NCBI GenBank assembly: GCA_015065215.1
Contig: SVQT01000009.1
Span: 1-54,098 of the forward strand
DNA from: Oscillospiraceae bacterium
GTDB lineage: Bacteria > Bacillota > Clostridia > Oscillospirales > CAG-272
DNA length: 54,098 nt
Reading direction: 5' to 3'
Shown here: positions 1,771 to 28,971 of the stretch, piece after piece
Position numbering within the stretch: position 1 is the first letter of the stretch
Layout: every line of letters begins with the position of its first letter
Translations under genes and position numbers: made by a program
Notes under the pieces: generated by a model
What the model saw: only the letters and a program-made list of their open reading frames with translations
Database searches by the model: none
Told to the model about the DNA's origin: nothing

Positions 1771-1812
1771 AGAAAACCCCGATAACGTATCACGTTATCG
1801 GGGTTTTCTTTA
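1769..1812. terminator. Bidirectional terminator between converging genes
   Basis: Near-perfect inverted repeat AAAGAAAACCCCGATAACG / CGTTATCGGGGTTTTCTTT with a 5-base loop. A-run and T-run on opposite sides let it serve both the plus-strand gene ending at 1770 and gatB on the minus strand. Confidence 0.92.
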
Positions 1813-3246
1813 TGCCTTATTGATCTCGTCGATCAGAAGGGTGCGGAGCACCTGCGGATCGCAGTTGCCCTTCAGCTGCTTCATACACTTGCCAAAGAGC
1901 GCCATCAGCGCCTTCTCCTTGCCGCCCTTGAAGTCGGCGACTGCCTTGGGATCGGCGGCGATCGCTTCCTTGATCACCTTTTCGATCAGGCCGGTGTCGT
2001 TGGAAACAATATAGCCGTTTTCTTCGGCGTACTTGGCGGGATCCAAATCAGCCTCAAACATGGCTTCCAAAATCTTTTTGGCGTTACCGCGGCCTACCTT
2101 TCCGTCGGCCACCAGCTTGATCAGCTGGCCAAGGGCCGTGCCGTTGACGGTCAGCTGATCGGCGGTCATCTGACGGCGGTTCAGAAGGTTCATGCAGTCC
2201 GAGATCAGCCAGTTTGCCGCCTCCTTAGCGCTGCCGCAAACGGCAAGCGCTGCCTCAAAGCAGTCGCAAAGGGCACGGCTGTCGGTCAGGAGGTTGGCGT
2301 CATAGTCGCTCAGCCCCAGCTCGGTGGTGTAGCGTGCCTTTTTGACCTCGGGGAATTCGGGCAGAGAGGCCTTGACGCTATCATACCAGGCGTCGTCAAT
2401 GACAATGGGCATGACATTGGGATCAGGGAAGTAGCGGTAATCGCCGGCGGTCTCCTTGTTGCGCATGGCAAAGCTCTTGCCCTTCACGTCATCCCAACGG
2501 CGGGTTTCCTGCACCAGCTCCTCGGTGCCGTTTTCAATGGCATCAATGTGTCGGGCGGTTTCGTATTCAATGGCGCGCACGATCGCGGAAAGCGAGTTCA
2601 TATTTTTCATCTCGGTACGCACACCCAATTTATCACTGCCCTCGGGGCGGACAGAAAGGTTGACGTCACAGCGCATCGAGCCCTGCTCCATGCGGCAATC
2701 GGATACCTTGGCAAAGCGCAAAAGCGAGCGCAGTCTTTCCAAATAGGCCACAACCTCCTCAGCACTGGAGAGGTCAGGCTGGCTGACGATCTCAATGAGC
2801 GGTACGCTGGTACGGTTGAAGTCCACAAGCGAGGTGTCGGTCCAATCGTCATGAACCAGCTTGCCGGCGTCCTCTTCCATGTGGATTTGCTTGATGCGGA
2901 TCGCCTTTTTACCGTTGGCGGTCTCAATTTCCACTGTGCCGTTGACGGCCACCGGGGCAAACCATTGGGTGGTCTGATAAGAGCAGGGCAGATCGGGATA
3001 ATAGTAGCTCTTTTTGTCAAAGGTGGTGGTGCGGTTAATGTGGCAGTTCAGCATCATGCCGGCGGTCATGCCAAGGTCTACCACCTTTTTATTGACGATG
3101 GGCAGCATGCCGGGCATACCGCAGCAGGCGGGGCAAACATGGTCGTTTTGCTCGGCGCCGAATTTGGCGGAGCAGGAGCAGAAGATCTTAGAGGCGGTGG
3201 CCATTTCTACATGGACCTCAAGACCGATGACAGTTTCAAATTTCAT
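1810..3246 (-). CDS. gatB: Asp/Glu-tRNA amidotransferase subunit B
   Basis: GatB of the GatCAB complex. It phosphorylates the side chain of Asp or Glu on misacylated tRNA(Asn) or tRNA(Gln) and then transfers ammonia to it. The 478-residue length is normal. The N-terminal kinase domain keeps the family signatures: GLEVHVEM near residue 8, the zinc-site cysteines (CSCS near 24 and CPACC near 39), the FDKKSYYYPDLP segment, the EEDAGKLVHD motif and the DYRYFPDPN motif. The C-terminal YqeY-like tRNA-binding tail is present (WLISDCMNLLNRR onwards). Nothing suggests loss of function, in contrast to its partner GatA. It is the last gene of aspS-gatC-gatA-gatB and starts one base after the gatA stop. 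Confidence 0.95.
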   Translation of the reverse strand: MKFETVIGLEVHVEMATASKIFCSCSAKFGAEQNDHVCPACCGMPGMLPIVNKKVVDLGMTAGMMLNCHINRTTTFDKKSYYYPDLPCSYQTTQWFAPVAVNGTVEIETANGKKAIRIKQIHMEEDAGKLVHDDWTDTSLVDFNRTSVPLIEIVSQPDLSSAEEVVAYLERLRSLLRFAKVSDCRMEQGSMRCDVNLSVRPEGSDKLGVRTEMKNMNSLSAIVRAIEYETARHIDAIENGTEELVQETRRWDDVKGKSFAMRNKETAGDYRYFPDPNVMPIVIDDAWYDSVKASLPEFPEVKKARYTTELGLSDYDANLLTDSRALCDCFEAALAVCGSAKEAANWLISDCMNLLNRRQMTADQLTVNGTALGQLIKLVADGKVGRGNAKKILEAMFEADLDPAKYAEENGYIVSNDTGLIEKVIKEAIAADPKAVADFKGGKEKALMALFGKCMKQLKGNCDPQVLRTLLIDEINKA

Positions 3247-3247
3247 C

Positions 3248-4369
3248 TTATTTGCCCTCCTTTACAAGGATTTTGGCAAGGTCAAGCAGAGCACTGTCCG
3301 CAAAGGCGGGGCCAATGAGCTGTACGCCACCGGCAACCACAGCGGGCAAGCCTGTGATAGAGGCAGGAGCGGTGTATTTGTTTTCTTCAAAAGCGGAGTC
3401 AGCATCGGTATAGGCCATCTTAGAGCAAGCGGGCATCAATACAGCGTCGGCATTCGCAAAGAGCTTAGCAAAGACCTCGGCGATCACGCGGCGGATACGC
3501 AAAGCCTTATCGTACTTGGCCATATAATTTTTGGTGGAAAGCACATCAGAGCCAAAGAGGATGGCTGTTTTCAGCAAGTCGCCAAAGGCCTCGGTGCGGC
3601 TGTTTGTGTACAGCTCATCAATGGTCTTGTAATTCTTGGTGCGGTAGCCGTATTTGATGCCGTCATAGCGGGAGACGTTGTTGCACAGCTCAGCGCACAT
3701 CAGAATGTTCCATGCAGTCTTTGCGGCCATCAGCTCGGCGGACTCGATTTCGGTGATTTCGATACCGTTTGCGGCCATTTCAGCCTTGGCGGCCTCGATT
3801 TTGGCGGTTACCTCCGCATCGGCGGCCATCTTGAGAATAGCCACCTTTTTGGCGGGTTTGGCCATATCCATGGCCAAATCATAGGTCAAAGCGTCAGCGT
3901 GCATGGTGCCGTCCCGCTCATCCTTGCCCACAATAGCGGTAAGCACCTGGCGGCAATCGGTAACGGTATTGGCCATGACGCCAACCGTTTCTCCGGAGCA
4001 AGCTACCGGCACAGTGCCATAACGGGAAACGGTGCCGTAAGTGGGCTTGAGGAATATAAGGTCGTTTTGCGCGGCAACGCGGCGGGGGGCGCCGTTCACA
4101 TCAAACGCGATAACCCCCGAAACGGTATCGTTTTTCAGTGCTTTCGCGGCGGCTGCGGTGTGTGTCGCGCCTGCGTAGCAGGTCTCACCGACAAGGTCAA
4201 TCGCCATTTCGCCAACAGGCACCTTGCCGCCAATTTCAAAGCCTGCGGCAGTGAGCTTTTCCACCACTGTAGCATCAAACAAGCTCATGTAGCCGTCCAG
4301 CATTTTAGAGCCGGCCGCGGTGGGCAGATCCTTGGTAAGGATCATATCGTCCAAAAGAATTTTCTTCAT
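3248..4369 (-). CDS. gatA: Truncated GatA-like subunit lacking the amidase catalytic triad
   Basis: By position between gatC and gatB, and by stretches such as SKMLDGY (21-27), FDATVVEKL (31-39) and KPTYGTVSRYG (108-118), this is the GatA subunit. Normal GatA (about 485 aa) is a glutaminase using a Ser-cisSer-Lys triad. Here the protein is only 373 aa and begins roughly where the catalytic Lys should be. The KDN motif reads as LDD, so Lys is replaced by about Asp7. The GGSSGGS loop reads AGATHTAA (66-73), and DTGGSIR reads DVNGAPR (90-96), putting Ala94 in place of the nucleophile. The glutamine-binding Asp near the C-terminus (NDILTIP type) appears as Asn (ENKYTAP). The frame is clean and codon use matches the neighbours, so this is not a simple frameshift. 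It may hold the complex together without making ammonia. Confidence 0.85.
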   Translation of the reverse strand: MKKILLDDMILTKDLPTAAGSKMLDGYMSLFDATVVEKLTAAGFEIGGKVPVGEMAIDLVGETCYAGATHTAAAAKALKNDTVSGVIAFDVNGAPRRVAAQNDLIFLKPTYGTVSRYGTVPVACSGETVGVMANTVTDCRQVLTAIVGKDERDGTMHADALTYDLAMDMAKPAKKVAILKMAADAEVTAKIEAAKAEMAANGIEITEIESAELMAAKTAWNILMCAELCNNVSRYDGIKYGYRTKNYKTIDELYTNSRTEAFGDLLKTAILFGSDVLSTKNYMAKYDKALRIRRVIAEVFAKLFANADAVLMPACSKMAYTDADSAFEENKYTAPASITGLPAVVAGGVQLIGPAFADSALLDLAKILVKEGK

Positions 4370-4702: not shown

Positions 4703-6478
4703 TCAATCTCTGACCTTGATGTGGACCTCACGCAGCTGCTGCTCGGTGACCTCACCGGGGGCGCCCATCATCAGATCCTGGGCATTGCCGTTGAGCGGGA
4801 AGGCGATGACATCACGGATGGTATCCTCCTCGGCAATCAGCATGATCATACGGTCGACACCGGGGGCCATACCCGCATGGGGCGGTGCGCCATAAGAGAA
4901 GGCGGTGTAAAGCGCGCCAAATTTTGCTTTAACGTCTTCCTCTCCGTAGCCGGCGATTTCAAAGGCCTTGCGCATAATTTCGGGGTTGTGGTTGCGCACC
5001 GCGCCGGAGGAAAGCTCCACGCCGTTGCACACGATGTCGTATTGATAAGCAAAAATCTCCAAAGGATCCTTGTTCAGCAGGGCATCCATGCCGCCCTGGG
5101 GCATCGAGAAGGGATTGTGGGTAAAGTCGATCTTGCCGGTTTCCTCATTGCGCTCGTACATGGGGAAATCTACGATGAAGCAGAACTCAAAGCGATCTTT
5201 TCTGATCAAGCTCAGCTCGTTTGCGATCCAGGTGCGCATCTGACCCGCCAGAGAATTGATGACGGCGGGCGCATCACTGATAAAGAAGAGGGAATCGCCC
5301 TCCTTGATGCCGCAAAGGGCGGTCAGCTCAGCCTTTTCAGCCTCGGACAGGAACTTGGCGATCGGGCCCTTATACTCGCCGTCCTCCAGGGTGATATAGC
5401 CACAGCCAAACTTCATGCCGATGCTGCGGGAATAGGTGTCGATGGCTTTTTCAAAAGCTTTTTTGCCGTCGCCGCTGCCATCCTTTTTGACCAGGTAGTT
5501 GGCAACGATACCGCGCACCAGCTTGTTCTTAAAAGGAATGGTGCGGCCGTTGATCTCCAGAAAATCGTGAGAGGCAAAGAACGCGGTCAGATCCTTGATT
5601 TCCAAGGGGTTGCGCAGGTCGGGCTTGTCAGAGCCGTATTTCAGCATTGACTCGGCAAAAGTGATACGGCGGAAGGGGGGCTTGGAGACCTCTTTATCCG
5701 AAAACTTTTTAAAGGTGTTGTAAACCACCTGCTCGGCAACGGCGAACACGTCCTCCTGGGTTGCAAAGGACATCTCAAAGTCCAACTGATAGAATTCGCC
5801 GGGGGAGCGATCCTGGCGGGCATCCTCATCACGGAAGCAGGGCGCGATCTGGAAGTAGCGGTCAAAGCCGGAGGCCATGAGCAGCTGCTTGAACTGCTGG
5901 GGGGCTTGGGGCAGCGCATAGAACTTGCCCTTGTGCTTGCGGCTGGGCACCAGATAGTCACGGGCGCCCTCGGGAGAGGAGGCGGTCAGAATAGGGGTCT
6001 GGATCTCCAAAAAGCCCATATCCTCCATTTGAGAGCGGAGGTAGGAAAGAATTTTGGAGCGCAGTACAATATTATCGTGAATCTTACGGTTGCGCAGATC
6101 CAGGTAGCGATATTTCAGGCGCACCTCCTCACGGGTCAAGGTAGAGGCATCGATCTCAAAGGGCAGACCCAGCTGGCAGGGACCCAGCACCTCGATTTTG
6201 CCCGCGCGCACCTCAATCAGACCGGTATCAATTTTGGGGTTGACGGTCTCCTCATCGCGCTTGGTAACCTCGCCCTCGATGAGAACGACCGTCTCCTTGG
6301 TGATGCCGGAGAGCATTTTGTCGTCGGAAAATACGATCTGCGTCACGCCATAGTGATCGCGCAGATCCACAAACAGGACACCGCCGTGGTCACGGATTGT
6401 CTCCACCCAACCGGTCAGTACCACTTTCCTGCCGATGTGTGCCACATTCAGCTCGTTACAGGTATGTGTTCTTAACAT
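4703..6478 (-). CDS. aspS: Aspartyl-tRNA synthetase, probably nondiscriminating
   Basis: Class II AspRS of bacterial type, 591 aa, with an N-terminal OB-fold anticodon domain (about 1-110), the catalytic core with motif 2 (FRDEDARQDRSPGEFYQLD) and motif 3 (GMAPGVDRMIML), and the bacterial GAD insertion between them. Residue 31 is His in IRDHGG. In Pseudomonas aeruginosa AspRS, His31 and Gly83 are tied to charging of both tRNA(Asp) and tRNA(Asn); here His31 is present, but the second position appears to be Glu. With gatCAB downstream, an Asp-tRNA(Asn)-making role is likely. Start chosen at ATG 6478, where a GGAGG site lies just upstream; an open frame runs further into the T-box leader but is not expected to be translated. 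Confidence 0.95.
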   Translation of the reverse strand: MLRTHTCNELNVAHIGRKVVLTGWVETIRDHGGVLFVDLRDHYGVTQIVFSDDKMLSGITKETVVLIEGEVTKRDEETVNPKIDTGLIEVRAGKIEVLGPCQLGLPFEIDASTLTREEVRLKYRYLDLRNRKIHDNIVLRSKILSYLRSQMEDMGFLEIQTPILTASSPEGARDYLVPSRKHKGKFYALPQAPQQFKQLLMASGFDRYFQIAPCFRDEDARQDRSPGEFYQLDFEMSFATQEDVFAVAEQVVYNTFKKFSDKEVSKPPFRRITFAESMLKYGSDKPDLRNPLEIKDLTAFFASHDFLEINGRTIPFKNKLVRGIVANYLVKKDGSGDGKKAFEKAIDTYSRSIGMKFGCGYITLEDGEYKGPIAKFLSEAEKAELTALCGIKEGDSLFFISDAPAVINSLAGQMRTWIANELSLIRKDRFEFCFIVDFPMYERNEETGKIDFTHNPFSMPQGGMDALLNKDPLEIFAYQYDIVCNGVELSSGAVRNHNPEIMRKAFEIAGYGEEDVKAKFGALYTAFSYGAPPHAGMAPGVDRMIMLIAEEDTIRDVIAFPLNGNAQDLMMGAPGEVTEQQLREVHIKVRD

Positions 6479-6483
6479 GAGAA

Positions 6484-6775
6484 AAACCTCCAGTATATAT
6501 TCACAAATTTTGATTGCAAAAACAAAAAACGCCCTTCCTCCCACATACATGGGACGAAAGACGATCTTCCGCGATACCACCCAAATTGACCCGTAAGGGC
6601 CCCCTTCATTTGCATCTTGACGCGATGAACGGACGGTTCTAATCACCAATCGGTTTTCTTCCGTCGGCTCCGGAGTGTTTTTCTCGCAGGTCCCATTGCT
6701 GTATTTCCACCGACAACAGCTCTCTTGAAATGGGGGTTCTGGATACTCTCTCCCTCATTGCCTTCATTCAATATA
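6484..6775 (-). promoter_or_regulatory. T-box leader of the aspS-gatCAB operon, specifier AAC (Asn)
   Basis: The leader holds the T-box sequence TGGGTGGTATCGCGG (minus strand, 6569-6583), followed by the alternative terminator. Further upstream are Stem I features: a GAGAGAGTA segment, GGTGGAAATACAGC of the distal region, and the specifier side GAGAAAAACACTCC. Lining this up with the well-studied glyQS leader, where the specifier is followed by A and a short stem strand, puts the specifier at 6677-6679 and reads AAC, an Asn codon. That fits an operon that makes Asn-tRNA(Asn) by transamidation. Uncharged tRNA(Asn) should then pair with the T-box and prevent termination. A Glu codon (GAG or GAA) overlaps just upstream of AAC, so two-tRNA sensing as described for Clostridium acetobutylicum is possible. 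Confidence 0.88.
6525..6563 (-). terminator. Regulated terminator of the T-box leader
   Basis: On the minus strand CGTCTTTCGTCCCA and TGGGAGGAAGGGCG form a stem with a short ATGTATG loop, followed by TTTTTT. This is the structure that the T-box antiterminator would compete with. Confidence 0.85.
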
Positions 6776-27060: not shown

Positions 27061-27144
27061 CAAGATCTCCTCCTTTTTTCTTCTTGCTATTAGGATATGC
27101 ACCTGCTTCGCCATTCGCTCATAGGATGGAGTGAGGTGAGGAAT

Positions 27145-28971
27145 ATGTGTTCGATCAACGGAATGATCAATTTTAGTGAGCCGGAAAAGATCTGTGGCAC
27201 AGAGATCGCTGCTGCCGGAGAGCGGCTCTGCCACCGCGGGCCGGATGGCAGCGGCGCCTTTTTTGCGCCGGGGGTGGGATTCTATCACAACCGCTTAGCG
27301 GTGATGGATCCTGAAGGGGGGGCGCAGCCCATGCGCGCCTTTTTCGGCGGACAATGGTACACGGTGGTTTATAACGGTGAAATTTATAATGGAAAGGAGC
27401 TACGCCGGGAATTGACCGCCAAGGGTGCGACCTTCCGCACAGATTGCGATACAGAAGTGGTGCTTTGGAGCTATATTCTTTATGGTGAGGATTGCCCCAA
27501 ATATCTCAATGGCATATTTGCTTTCGCTGTCTATGATCCCGGTAAGCAGAAAGTGTTTCTTGCCAGAGACAGAATGGGAGTCAAACCGCTTTTTTATGCC
27601 CGTTTTGGGGGTAATTTCTATTTTTCCTCTGAGATAAAGGCGCTTTTCGCTCATCGTGAGATCAGACCGGAGGTGAGCAAAGAAGGGTTGTGGCAGCTCT
27701 TTTATCTAACGCCGGTGACCCTGCCGGGCAGTGGTGTTTTTAAGCATATTTTTGAGGTTTTGCCCGGCAATGCCGCCCGTGTAACCAGAAACGGCTATGA
27801 GGAATGGCCCTATTGGAGATTGCAAGCTGGTCTTTGCCAAGACGACCGACCGACTGCCGCCCAGCGGGTGCGGGAACTGCTTGTAGATGCGGTAAAGCGA
27901 CAGCTTTCCAGTGATGTACCGTTGGCGGTTCTGCTTTCCGGCGGCTTGGATTCCTCTGCGATCAGCGCCGTGGCGGCGGCACATTTAAAAGAGCAGGGCA
28001 GAACGCTTTCCACCTATTCGTTTGAGCATGAAGGGAACAAAGAAAATTTTCAGTCTACCCTTTTTCAACCGCAAGGCGATGACGCTTATGCCACCGAGCT
28101 TGCCGCAACGCTTGGTACAGACCACAGGGTATTGACCGCCCCCGCCGCATTGGTGGCAGAGCGCCTGATCGATGCCACTCACGCAAGAGACCTGCCCGGG
28201 CAAGCGGACATTGACTCCTCCTTGCTCTATTTTTGTAATAAAATCAAGGAGCGGCATACGGTCATTCTTTCGGGGGAATGCGCGGATGAGATTTTTGGCG
28301 GGTACCCTTGGTTTTATCGCCCGGAGATGTTAGAGCGGGATTTCTTTCCCTGGCTGCACGATCCCCACACACGTATTGGCTTGTTTGACGAAACGCTGAC
28401 CCGCCCGCAGGAGGGCTTGCGCTATTTGCGTGAGGTTTGTCGCCAAAGTGTGCAAGATTGCCCTGTGCTTGAGGGGGAGGGGGTTGCTGACCGCACCGCG
28501 CGGATTGCGACCTGGCTATCTACCAAATATTTTATGGCCAATTTGCTCTCACGCAAGGATCGCATGAGTATGTACAGCTCGGTAGAGGTCCGGGTACCTT
28601 TTGCCGATCACCGCATCCTGGAGTATGTTTTTAACCTACCGTGGTCCATTAAGTACGAAAACGGTATTGAAAAAGCCTTGTTGCGCCGTGCGATGGCAGG
28701 CTATCTGCCCGACCGTGTGCTTTGGCGAAAGAAGAGCCCTTATCCCAAGAGTCACAATCCGCTATATGAAACATTGGTGCGCGGCATGCTAAAGGAGCGC
28801 TTAGAAAGAGGAGGCTTTCTTTCCACCTATTTGGACCGTCGCAAGCTGAAAGCGCTGTTGGAGGGGGAAAATGACACTTGGTTTGGGCAGCTAATGGCGC
28901 GCCCCCAACTAATCGCCTGGCTTTTGCAATTAGATGAGTGGTTTGATTTTTATCAGGTGAAATTGGTCTAA
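27145..28971 (+). CDS. asnB: Asparagine synthase, glutamine-hydrolysing
   Basis: Makes asparagine from aspartate with glutamine and ATP. The 608-residue protein opens MCSINGMINF, where Cys2 is the glutaminase nucleophile exposed after Met removal. The N-terminal Ntn domain (about 1-190) includes CHRGPDGSGAFF and YNGEIYNGKELR. The synthetase domain has the PP-loop LLSGGLDSSAIS near residue 263 and SGECADEIFGGYPWFY near 375-390. Start chosen at ATG 27145, behind GTGAGGTGAGGA, because Cys must follow Met directly. It makes free Asn, separate from the tRNA-dependent route encoded by aspS-gatCAB in this window. No clear promoter is seen between it and the divergent gene. Confidence 0.95.
   Translation: MCSINGMINFSEPEKICGTEIAAAGERLCHRGPDGSGAFFAPGVGFYHNRLAVMDPEGGAQPMRAFFGGQWYTVVYNGEIYNGKELRRELTAKGATFRTDCDTEVVLWSYILYGEDCPKYLNGIFAFAVYDPGKQKVFLARDRMGVKPLFYARFGGNFYFSSEIKALFAHREIRPEVSKEGLWQLFYLTPVTLPGSGVFKHIFEVLPGNAARVTRNGYEEWPYWRLQAGLCQDDRPTAAQRVRELLVDAVKRQLSSDVPLAVLLSGGLDSSAISAVAAAHLKEQGRTLSTYSFEHEGNKENFQSTLFQPQGDDAYATELAATLGTDHRVLTAPAALVAERLIDATHARDLPGQADIDSSLLYFCNKIKERHTVILSGECADEIFGGYPWFYRPEMLERDFFPWLHDPHTRIGLFDETLTRPQEGLRYLREVCRQSVQDCPVLEGEGVADRTARIATWLSTKYFMANLLSRKDRMSMYSSVEVRVPFADHRILEYVFNLPWSIKYENGIEKALLRRAMAGYLPDRVLWRKKSPYPKSHNPLYETLVRGMLKERLERGGFLSTYLDRRKLKALLEGENDTWFGQLMARPQLIAWLLQLDEWFDFYQVKLV

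Follow-up and report, generated by a model that had tools for sequence, protein, structure and literature searches.

Short GatA proteins that have lost the amidase active site within GatCAB operons of Clostridia

To our knowledge, the GatA glutaminase is always paired with GatB in bacterial GatCAB amidotransferases. The operon described here shares with the aspS-linked bacterial GatCABs the same three subunits, of which GatB and GatC score over curated cut-offs and GatA has an amidase-family core. It is unlike them in that GatA is short and has neither the catalytic triad, the serine loop, the glutamine-binding residues nor the N-terminus, and in that several conserved GatB positions, including Lys88, are changed. 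The operon is thus a GatCAB variant, i.e., GatB and GatC belong to their families whereas GatA lacks the defining catalytic features.

Clostridium acetobutylicum reportedly makes Asn-tRNA by a T-box-controlled AspRS-GatCAB route and has two AspRS in its genome; its GatA is said to be canonical and glutamine-dependent. The system analyzed here is similar in its T-box control, its AspRS-GatCAB route to Asn-tRNA and the presence of two AspRS, but differs in that the GatA of C. acetobutylicum is canonical. In archaeal GatDE, the GatB homologue receives its ammonia from an asparaginase-family protein. Likewise, an asparaginase-like gene adjoins some short-GatA operons. In contrast to GatDE, however, the short-GatA operons have a GatC and still contain GatA, as a pseudo-amidase; their GatB is not a GatE, and the asparaginase-like neighbor lacks the classical Lys. 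According to a study on yeast GatFAB, this enzyme uses NH4Cl, and a domain of GatF props the GatA glutaminase site (PMC4027206). GatF truncation lowers glutamine use and shifts the enzyme toward free ammonium, with NH4Cl-dependent transamidation raised in one truncation mutant (PMC4027206). Yeast GatFAB keeps a working glutaminase, whereas the site of the short GatA was lost in nature. Among titles and abstract beginnings of open-access papers, we recognized no description of a GatA without amidase site; subscription papers lie mostly outside this set, so the negative result carries little weight.

The window operon and its GatA

The window, i.e., the whole analyzed stretch of 54,098 nucleotides from an Oscillospiraceae bacterium, contains the genes aspS-gatC-gatA-gatB in this order, with gatC adjoining aspS, as found from open reading frames and profile searches (Table 1). 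GatB scored 600 bits with NF004012 (cut-off 338) and is therefore a member of the GatB family; with the GatE-type model NF003107 it reached 157 bits against a cut-off of 456. GatC lies within the operon and scores over its cut-off, hence it is a GatC by family. A sequence-only reading of this DNA had described the gene between gatC and gatB, behind aspS, as a clean frame coding for 373 aa, and this was borne out.

Table 1. Features of the short-GatA operon in the window. Residue numbers after three-letter codes of reference positions follow S. aureus.
Feature	Position	Strand	Basis
Short amidase-dead GatA (pseudo-GatA), 373 aa	3248..4369	-	clean frame; PF01425 and TIGR00132 matches
GatB, 478 aa, kinase/transamidase residues intact	1810..3246	-	profile match, alignment; downstream of gatA
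GatC, 93 aa	4381..4662	-	58 bits, cut-off 47; upstream of gatA
aspS (aspartyl-tRNA synthetase), motif RDHGGV, probably non-discriminating	4703..6475	-	PRK00476, 763 bits, cut-off 443
T-box leader, specifier AAC (Asn), upstream of aspS	6547..6767	-	RF00230, 101 bits, gathering 93
Asp7 codon, catalytic Lys79 position	4349..4351	-	alignment
Ala94 codon, nucleophile Ser178 position	4088..4090	-	alignment
Ala269 codon, glutamine-carboxylate-binding Arg358 position	3563..3565	-	alignment
Asn330 codon, glutamine-binding Asp425 position	3380..3382	-	alignment
GatB residue 88 codon (Cys), aligned with Lys88 of S. aureus GatB	2983..2985	-	alignment

We compared the window GatA with S. aureus GatA (2df4_A), in which we take Lys79, Ser178, Arg358 and Asp425 to have the roles given in Table 1. 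Corresponding residue roles are described for the yeast homologue in PMC4027206. The phmmer alignment spans chain residues 79 to 440 and starts at query residue 7, which aligns Lys79 with Asp7; Ser178 is replaced by Ala94, Arg358 by Ala269 and Asp425 by Asn330. A stretch of about 12 residues at the GGSSGGS loop is absent, as are the N-terminal approximately 70 residues. Hence, of the Ser-cisSer-Lys triad the Lys and both Ser are gone, as are both glutamine-binding residues, Arg358 and Asp425. The sequence-only reading had assigned Asp7 to the catalytic Lys, Ala94 to the nucleophile and an Asn to the glutamine-binding Asp, all correctly by this alignment. It had read the loop as altered to AGATHTA; the loop is better called deleted.

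The protein still matches the amidase family PF01425 (161 bits, cut-off 27), whereas with the NCBIfam equivalog TIGR00132 it scored 222 bits against a cut-off of 481; the other short GatAs tested also stayed under this cut-off. An AF2 model computed from a 41-row family alignment had a pLDDT of 90.5 and a pTM of 0.91, which suggests that the window GatA is a well-folded protein. The pseudo-GatA keeps the core fold and has lost the residues that bind and hydrolyze glutamine.

A clade of short GatA proteins

In a search of the window's own genome and 58 relatives, short gatA-like genes were present in five other genomes of the same genus and also outside it, in additional genera and families. 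Scanning 84,980 species genomes yielded at least 595 confirmed GatA relatives; 48 of the best 80 of these were short forms, mostly from metagenome-assembled genomes (MAGs) of herbivore-gut Clostridia. At 411 bits or more, 17 of 394 genomes matched in an order-level survey, with a gap to the next match at 310 bits, and 2 of 398 in a phylum sample, own genome included; both counts miss low-scoring dead forms, e.g., the G780 and G279 copies. Among the matches listed we found 56 distinct short GatAs, all without Lys79, the loop, Arg358 and Asp425; the nucleophile Ser survives in 13 of them.

For residue counts, these 56 sequences gave 57 aligned rows, as the window was entered twice; two loci that were cut or frame-broken (L058 and L069) were left out. 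The canonical set comprised 61 of 66 loci picked by serine-loop, DTGG and Lys-Asp motifs and is therefore a fair control for Arg358 and Asp425 only. By eye, the five excluded loci (L082, L090, L092, L103, L110) also have the Lys, the serine loop and DTGGS. Position 358 is Arg in 61/61 canonical rows and V, A, T, N or H in 57/57 short rows. At position 425, Asp occurs in none of the 57 short rows; the canonical rows have Asp in 60 and Glu in one of 61. Position 79 is Asp or Glu in all 57 short rows and Lys in all 59 canonical rows that are not gapped at this position, and position 178 is A in 34, S in 13, T in 8, and Y and F in one short row each. No GGSSGG-like motif was present in the 57 short rows. 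New near-invariant residues are Asn in place of Gly176 (56/57) and Arg in place of Gln181 (57/57).

In a quick tree search, the short GatAs formed one clade (SH-aLRT 100). They are under purifying selection: among the 40 closest pairs, dS was saturated in five, and the other 35 gave dN/dS of 0.06–0.18. As 56 distinct homologues lack the same Lys, loop and glutamine-binding residues, and given these dN/dS values, chance, misassembly and a pseudogene are ruled out. The observation made on the window is thus confirmed and wider than one gene.

The order aspS-gatC-gatA-gatB recurs in related loci wherever reading frames were resolved. It was seen for most of 48 loci, with GatA clustered in 44, GatB in 44 and AspS in 42. 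AspS and GatC are fused in 25 of these loci and separate in 12; the remaining 11 have no call. An AlaX-like alanyl-tRNA editing gene, named by eye, follows gatB in nine of the 48 (L040, L043, L045, L049, L050, L051, L055, L058, L094).

Nine genomes of the same genus without AsnRS (G003, G009, G010, G012, G013, G015, G018, G019, G020) have a full-length canonical GatA. In all three that were opened it sits behind aspS-gatC, in the same gene order as in the short operon. The short form is hence one of two alternative versions within the genus and not an isolated mutation. A full-length gatA in related strains, which the sequence-only reading had named as possible counter-evidence, does occur in this weak form. 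In genome G007, a second, canonical gatA-gatB pair (L181:3786-7359) lies behind a gene that by eye resembles an Amt ammonium transporter.

Three more divergent relatives bear on how the dead form arose. The GatA of G780 (L191:6015-7385, minus strand) has 456 residues and keeps an N-terminal region and the loop; Lys79 is replaced by Glu, the loop has no serine pair, the nucleophile position is also Glu, and the partner GatB has Asn88. In G338, GatA has 414 residues and lacks the N-terminus; its loop persists but has no serine pair, the nucleophile position is occupied by Ser, and GatB has Ala88. In G279, GatA is about 370 residues long, with Ile at the nucleophile position, and GatB again has Ala88. 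The dead forms group together, with support of 100/99 in a 47-row GatA tree and 100/100 in a 45-row GatB tree. In the GatB tree, G279 and G780 are at the base of the dead group, and G338 branches off next, before the short forms. The GatA tree leaves the placement of G279 and G780, both on long branches, unsure. From these sequences, catalysis was likely lost first and truncation came after, with the G780 protein as an apparent intermediate stage.

Partner GatB and the supply of Asn-tRNA

In 48 of 48 partner GatBs, Glu10, His12, Lys79, Glu124, Glu125, Glu152, Asp194, Asn196, Lys214 and Asn215 are kept. The sequence-only reading had stated that GatB is free of decay, which is right for these catalytic residues; GatB is not unchanged, however, since 22 canonical GatBs share 123 conserved positions, of which the 48 short-operon GatBs keep 90 (L076 was left out of the GatB counts). 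R78K, F82Y, S93T, G147S and Q233H occur in 48/48. Tyr82 is also found in one canonical locus (L087) and Thr93 in two (L104 and L111), and the G279 GatB keeps Phe82.

Residue 88 is Cys in 34, Ala in nine, Gly in four and Ser in one of the 48 short-operon GatBs; with G780, G338 and G279 included, Lys88 is lost in 51 of 51 GatBs that partner a dead GatA. It is Lys in five aligned PDB GatBs, with numbering identical to S. aureus, and together with Glu125 we take it to be the gate of the ammonia tunnel. Among 31 canonical-GatA loci with a readable motif, 27 have Lys, three Gln and one Ser at this position. When the motif YPDLP was required, Lys was found in 22/22 loci; the loci thus excluded add five Lys, three Gln and one Ser, and in one more of them (L092) motif reading found no GatB motif. 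The replacements lie in the motifs YPDNPQNYQ or YPDNPSAYQ, with Gln in L088, L096 and L109 and Ser in L104. The GatA of these four loci has a full active site despite the missing Lys88. Lys88 loss as a mark of dead GatA is thereby weakened, i.e., it is usual with dead GatA but not confined to it.

The specifier triplet AAC of the window T-box aligns with UUC in the RF00230 consensus, which we take to be the specifier. A T-box upstream of aspS reached the Rfam gathering score in two of eight loci run (L034 and L037), both with AAC. By motif, 39 of the 43 loci for which upstream sequence was available have one before aspS, as does the window; GAAAAACAC with explicit AAC occurs in the window and seven loci. 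A second clade has atypical T-boxes with an apparently shortened stem I (L043:5633-5820, L047:5585-5811, L065:2410-2618; 40–52 bits, gathering 93). AACACT is contained in 30 of 40 leaders, and an Asn specifier is suggested for those of the second clade. The operon AspRS has His in RDHGGV, presumably the mark of a non-discriminating enzyme, where the second AspRS of the genome has Leu in RDLGAL. By this motif the operon AspRS is probably non-discriminating. The Leu copy, on contig C85 (L176:82-1893, minus strand), is probably discriminating.

We surveyed 58 distinct short-GatA genomes (59 rows, one genome being entered twice), most of them incomplete MAGs. AsnRS was over cut-off in eight and was not found in 50, with sub-cut-off AsnRS-like matches in three genomes (G078, G080, G096). 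A full-length canonical gatA was found in 16, split between contigs in one case, and none in 42. In the window's own genome, whose assembly is 84.6% complete, neither a second gatA nor an asnS was over cut-off. Neither AsnRS nor canonical GatA was detected in 35 of the 58, own genome included, and there the short complex is the only recognized route to Asn-tRNA; it is not the sole route in the genomes with AsnRS or canonical GatA. The asparagine synthetase AsnB (E ≤ 1e-30) is also missing in 21 of these 35. The own genome has a glutamine-dependent AsnB in the window (27097-28971, plus strand; 464 bits, cut-off 267), and since no AsnRS was detected there, free Asn would not go directly to Asn-tRNA.

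Within the genus, asnS is present in G002 and G017, where no GatA was detected, whereas each asnS-less genome tested has a short or a full GatA. From this swap pattern, the short operon appears to replace the same Asn-tRNA function as AsnRS or canonical GatA. Synthesis of Gln-tRNA by the short complex is unlikely. GlnRS matched at E ≤ 1e-60 in 52/58 short-GatA genomes, and canonical GatA was present in five of six genomes without GlnRS versus 11 of 52 with it (Fisher p 0.005, phylogeny ignored), in line with a short complex dedicated to Asn. G059, with neither GlnRS nor canonical GatA, is an exception.

From the window alone, a kept, changed function with ammonia from another source had been proposed for the short GatA. 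The comparisons support this view; that the function is kept is backed by purifying selection, the single clade, the operon order, the Asn T-box and the missing AsnRS.

The source of ammonia

Taking these comparisons together, we consider it probable that the operon encodes a glutamine-independent Asp-tRNA(Asn) amidotransferase with the pseudo-GatA as scaffold and GatB working on free ammonia or on ammonia made in trans. The operon would then be a dedicated tRNA-dependent asparagine system. The probably non-discriminating AspRS would form Asp-tRNA(Asn), which GatB, GatC and the short GatA would convert to Asn-tRNA(Asn). Ammonia would enter GatB either directly from solution or after release by another enzyme, passing a tunnel whose glutaminase end is gone and which, on the GatB side, lacks Lys88. 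We infer a complex that is active, does not use glutamine and takes its amide nitrogen from free or in-trans ammonia. Free ammonia is expected to be plentiful in the herbivore gut. By analogy, free ammonium would be the simplest nitrogen source.

Ammonia made in trans for pseudo-GatA and GatB by the asparaginase-family protein beside some operons, parallel to GatD with GatE, is a rather unlikely alternative overall. Of the 58 short-GatA genomes, 16 contain a linked asparaginase-like subfamily (>300 bits), as against none of 22 other genomes searched; 15 of these 16 genes lie within 5 kb of a short gatA, and GatD (1zq1) is among the best PDB relatives of the protein. The subfamily is, however, absent from 42 of the 58, own genome included, which has only a distant, unlinked asparaginase relative (G000:C15:3889-4815). 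With looser relatives (≥130 bits), 47 of 58 asnS-less genomes are positive versus two of 22 asnS-bearing ones, phylogeny ignored, but this correlation also fits plain Asn-to-Asp salvage, and such a relative is also found with canonical GatA (6/22). As a general answer we thus rejected the asparaginase partner and kept it as a rival only, because the linked subfamily is present in 16/58 and the looser relative tracks AsnRS absence, not short GatA. The asparaginase-like neighbor keeps the Thr/Thr-Asp motifs and not the Lys, and none adjoins the window operon. At what we take to be the classical catalytic Lys of the family, these proteins have Gln or varied residues, which makes their activity uncertain; they are possibly a new type of hydrolase, judging from these residues. 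Asparaginase-family proteins with LSEN/LSES, HGTD and a conserved YHS or FHS are near the operon in L034, L035, L037, L038, L049, L051, L056, L058, L059, L060 and L074, and the own genome has one as well (L172). The further-reaching proposal, that the only Asn-tRNA source of the cell would be a glutamine-independent amidotransferase fed by a trans-acting, re-wired asparaginase-family protein, with hydrolase and transamidase on two different proteins, GatA as a docking and tunnel subunit, and the arrangement reached independently of archaeal GatDE, seems unlikely to us.

Glutamine use itself might persist if the short GatA had re-invented a glutaminase site from its new invariants Asp/Glu79, Asn176 and Arg181. 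These are near-invariant (57, 56 and 57 of 57 rows, respectively), and Ser or Thr at the nucleophile position in 21/57 rows leaves room for new chemistry. But the loop and the two residues that bind glutamine are missing, the nucleophile position is variable and the new residues may simply hold the fold together, so that we regard such a site as very unlikely. Most improbable appears a complex that no longer amidates, i.e., a regulator or decaying relic beside Asn-tRNA synthesis by an unrecognized enzyme. AsnRS in eight and canonical GatA in 16 of the short-GatA genomes would agree with it, yet a relic is at odds with purifying selection, the intact GatB catalytic residues, the Asn T-box and the 35 of 58 genomes without another recognized Asn-tRNA route.

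The glutamine-independent amidotransferase is hence the reading we prefer. The equivalog gatA model scores the short GatAs tested under its cut-off, a warning to annotation pipelines. With GatA kept but its chemistry deleted, the clade amounts to a natural separation-of-function mutant, which would reveal which roles GatA has beyond ammonia, how GatB adapts once the glutaminase is gone, and if free ammonia is enough for the essential synthesis of Asn-tRNA.
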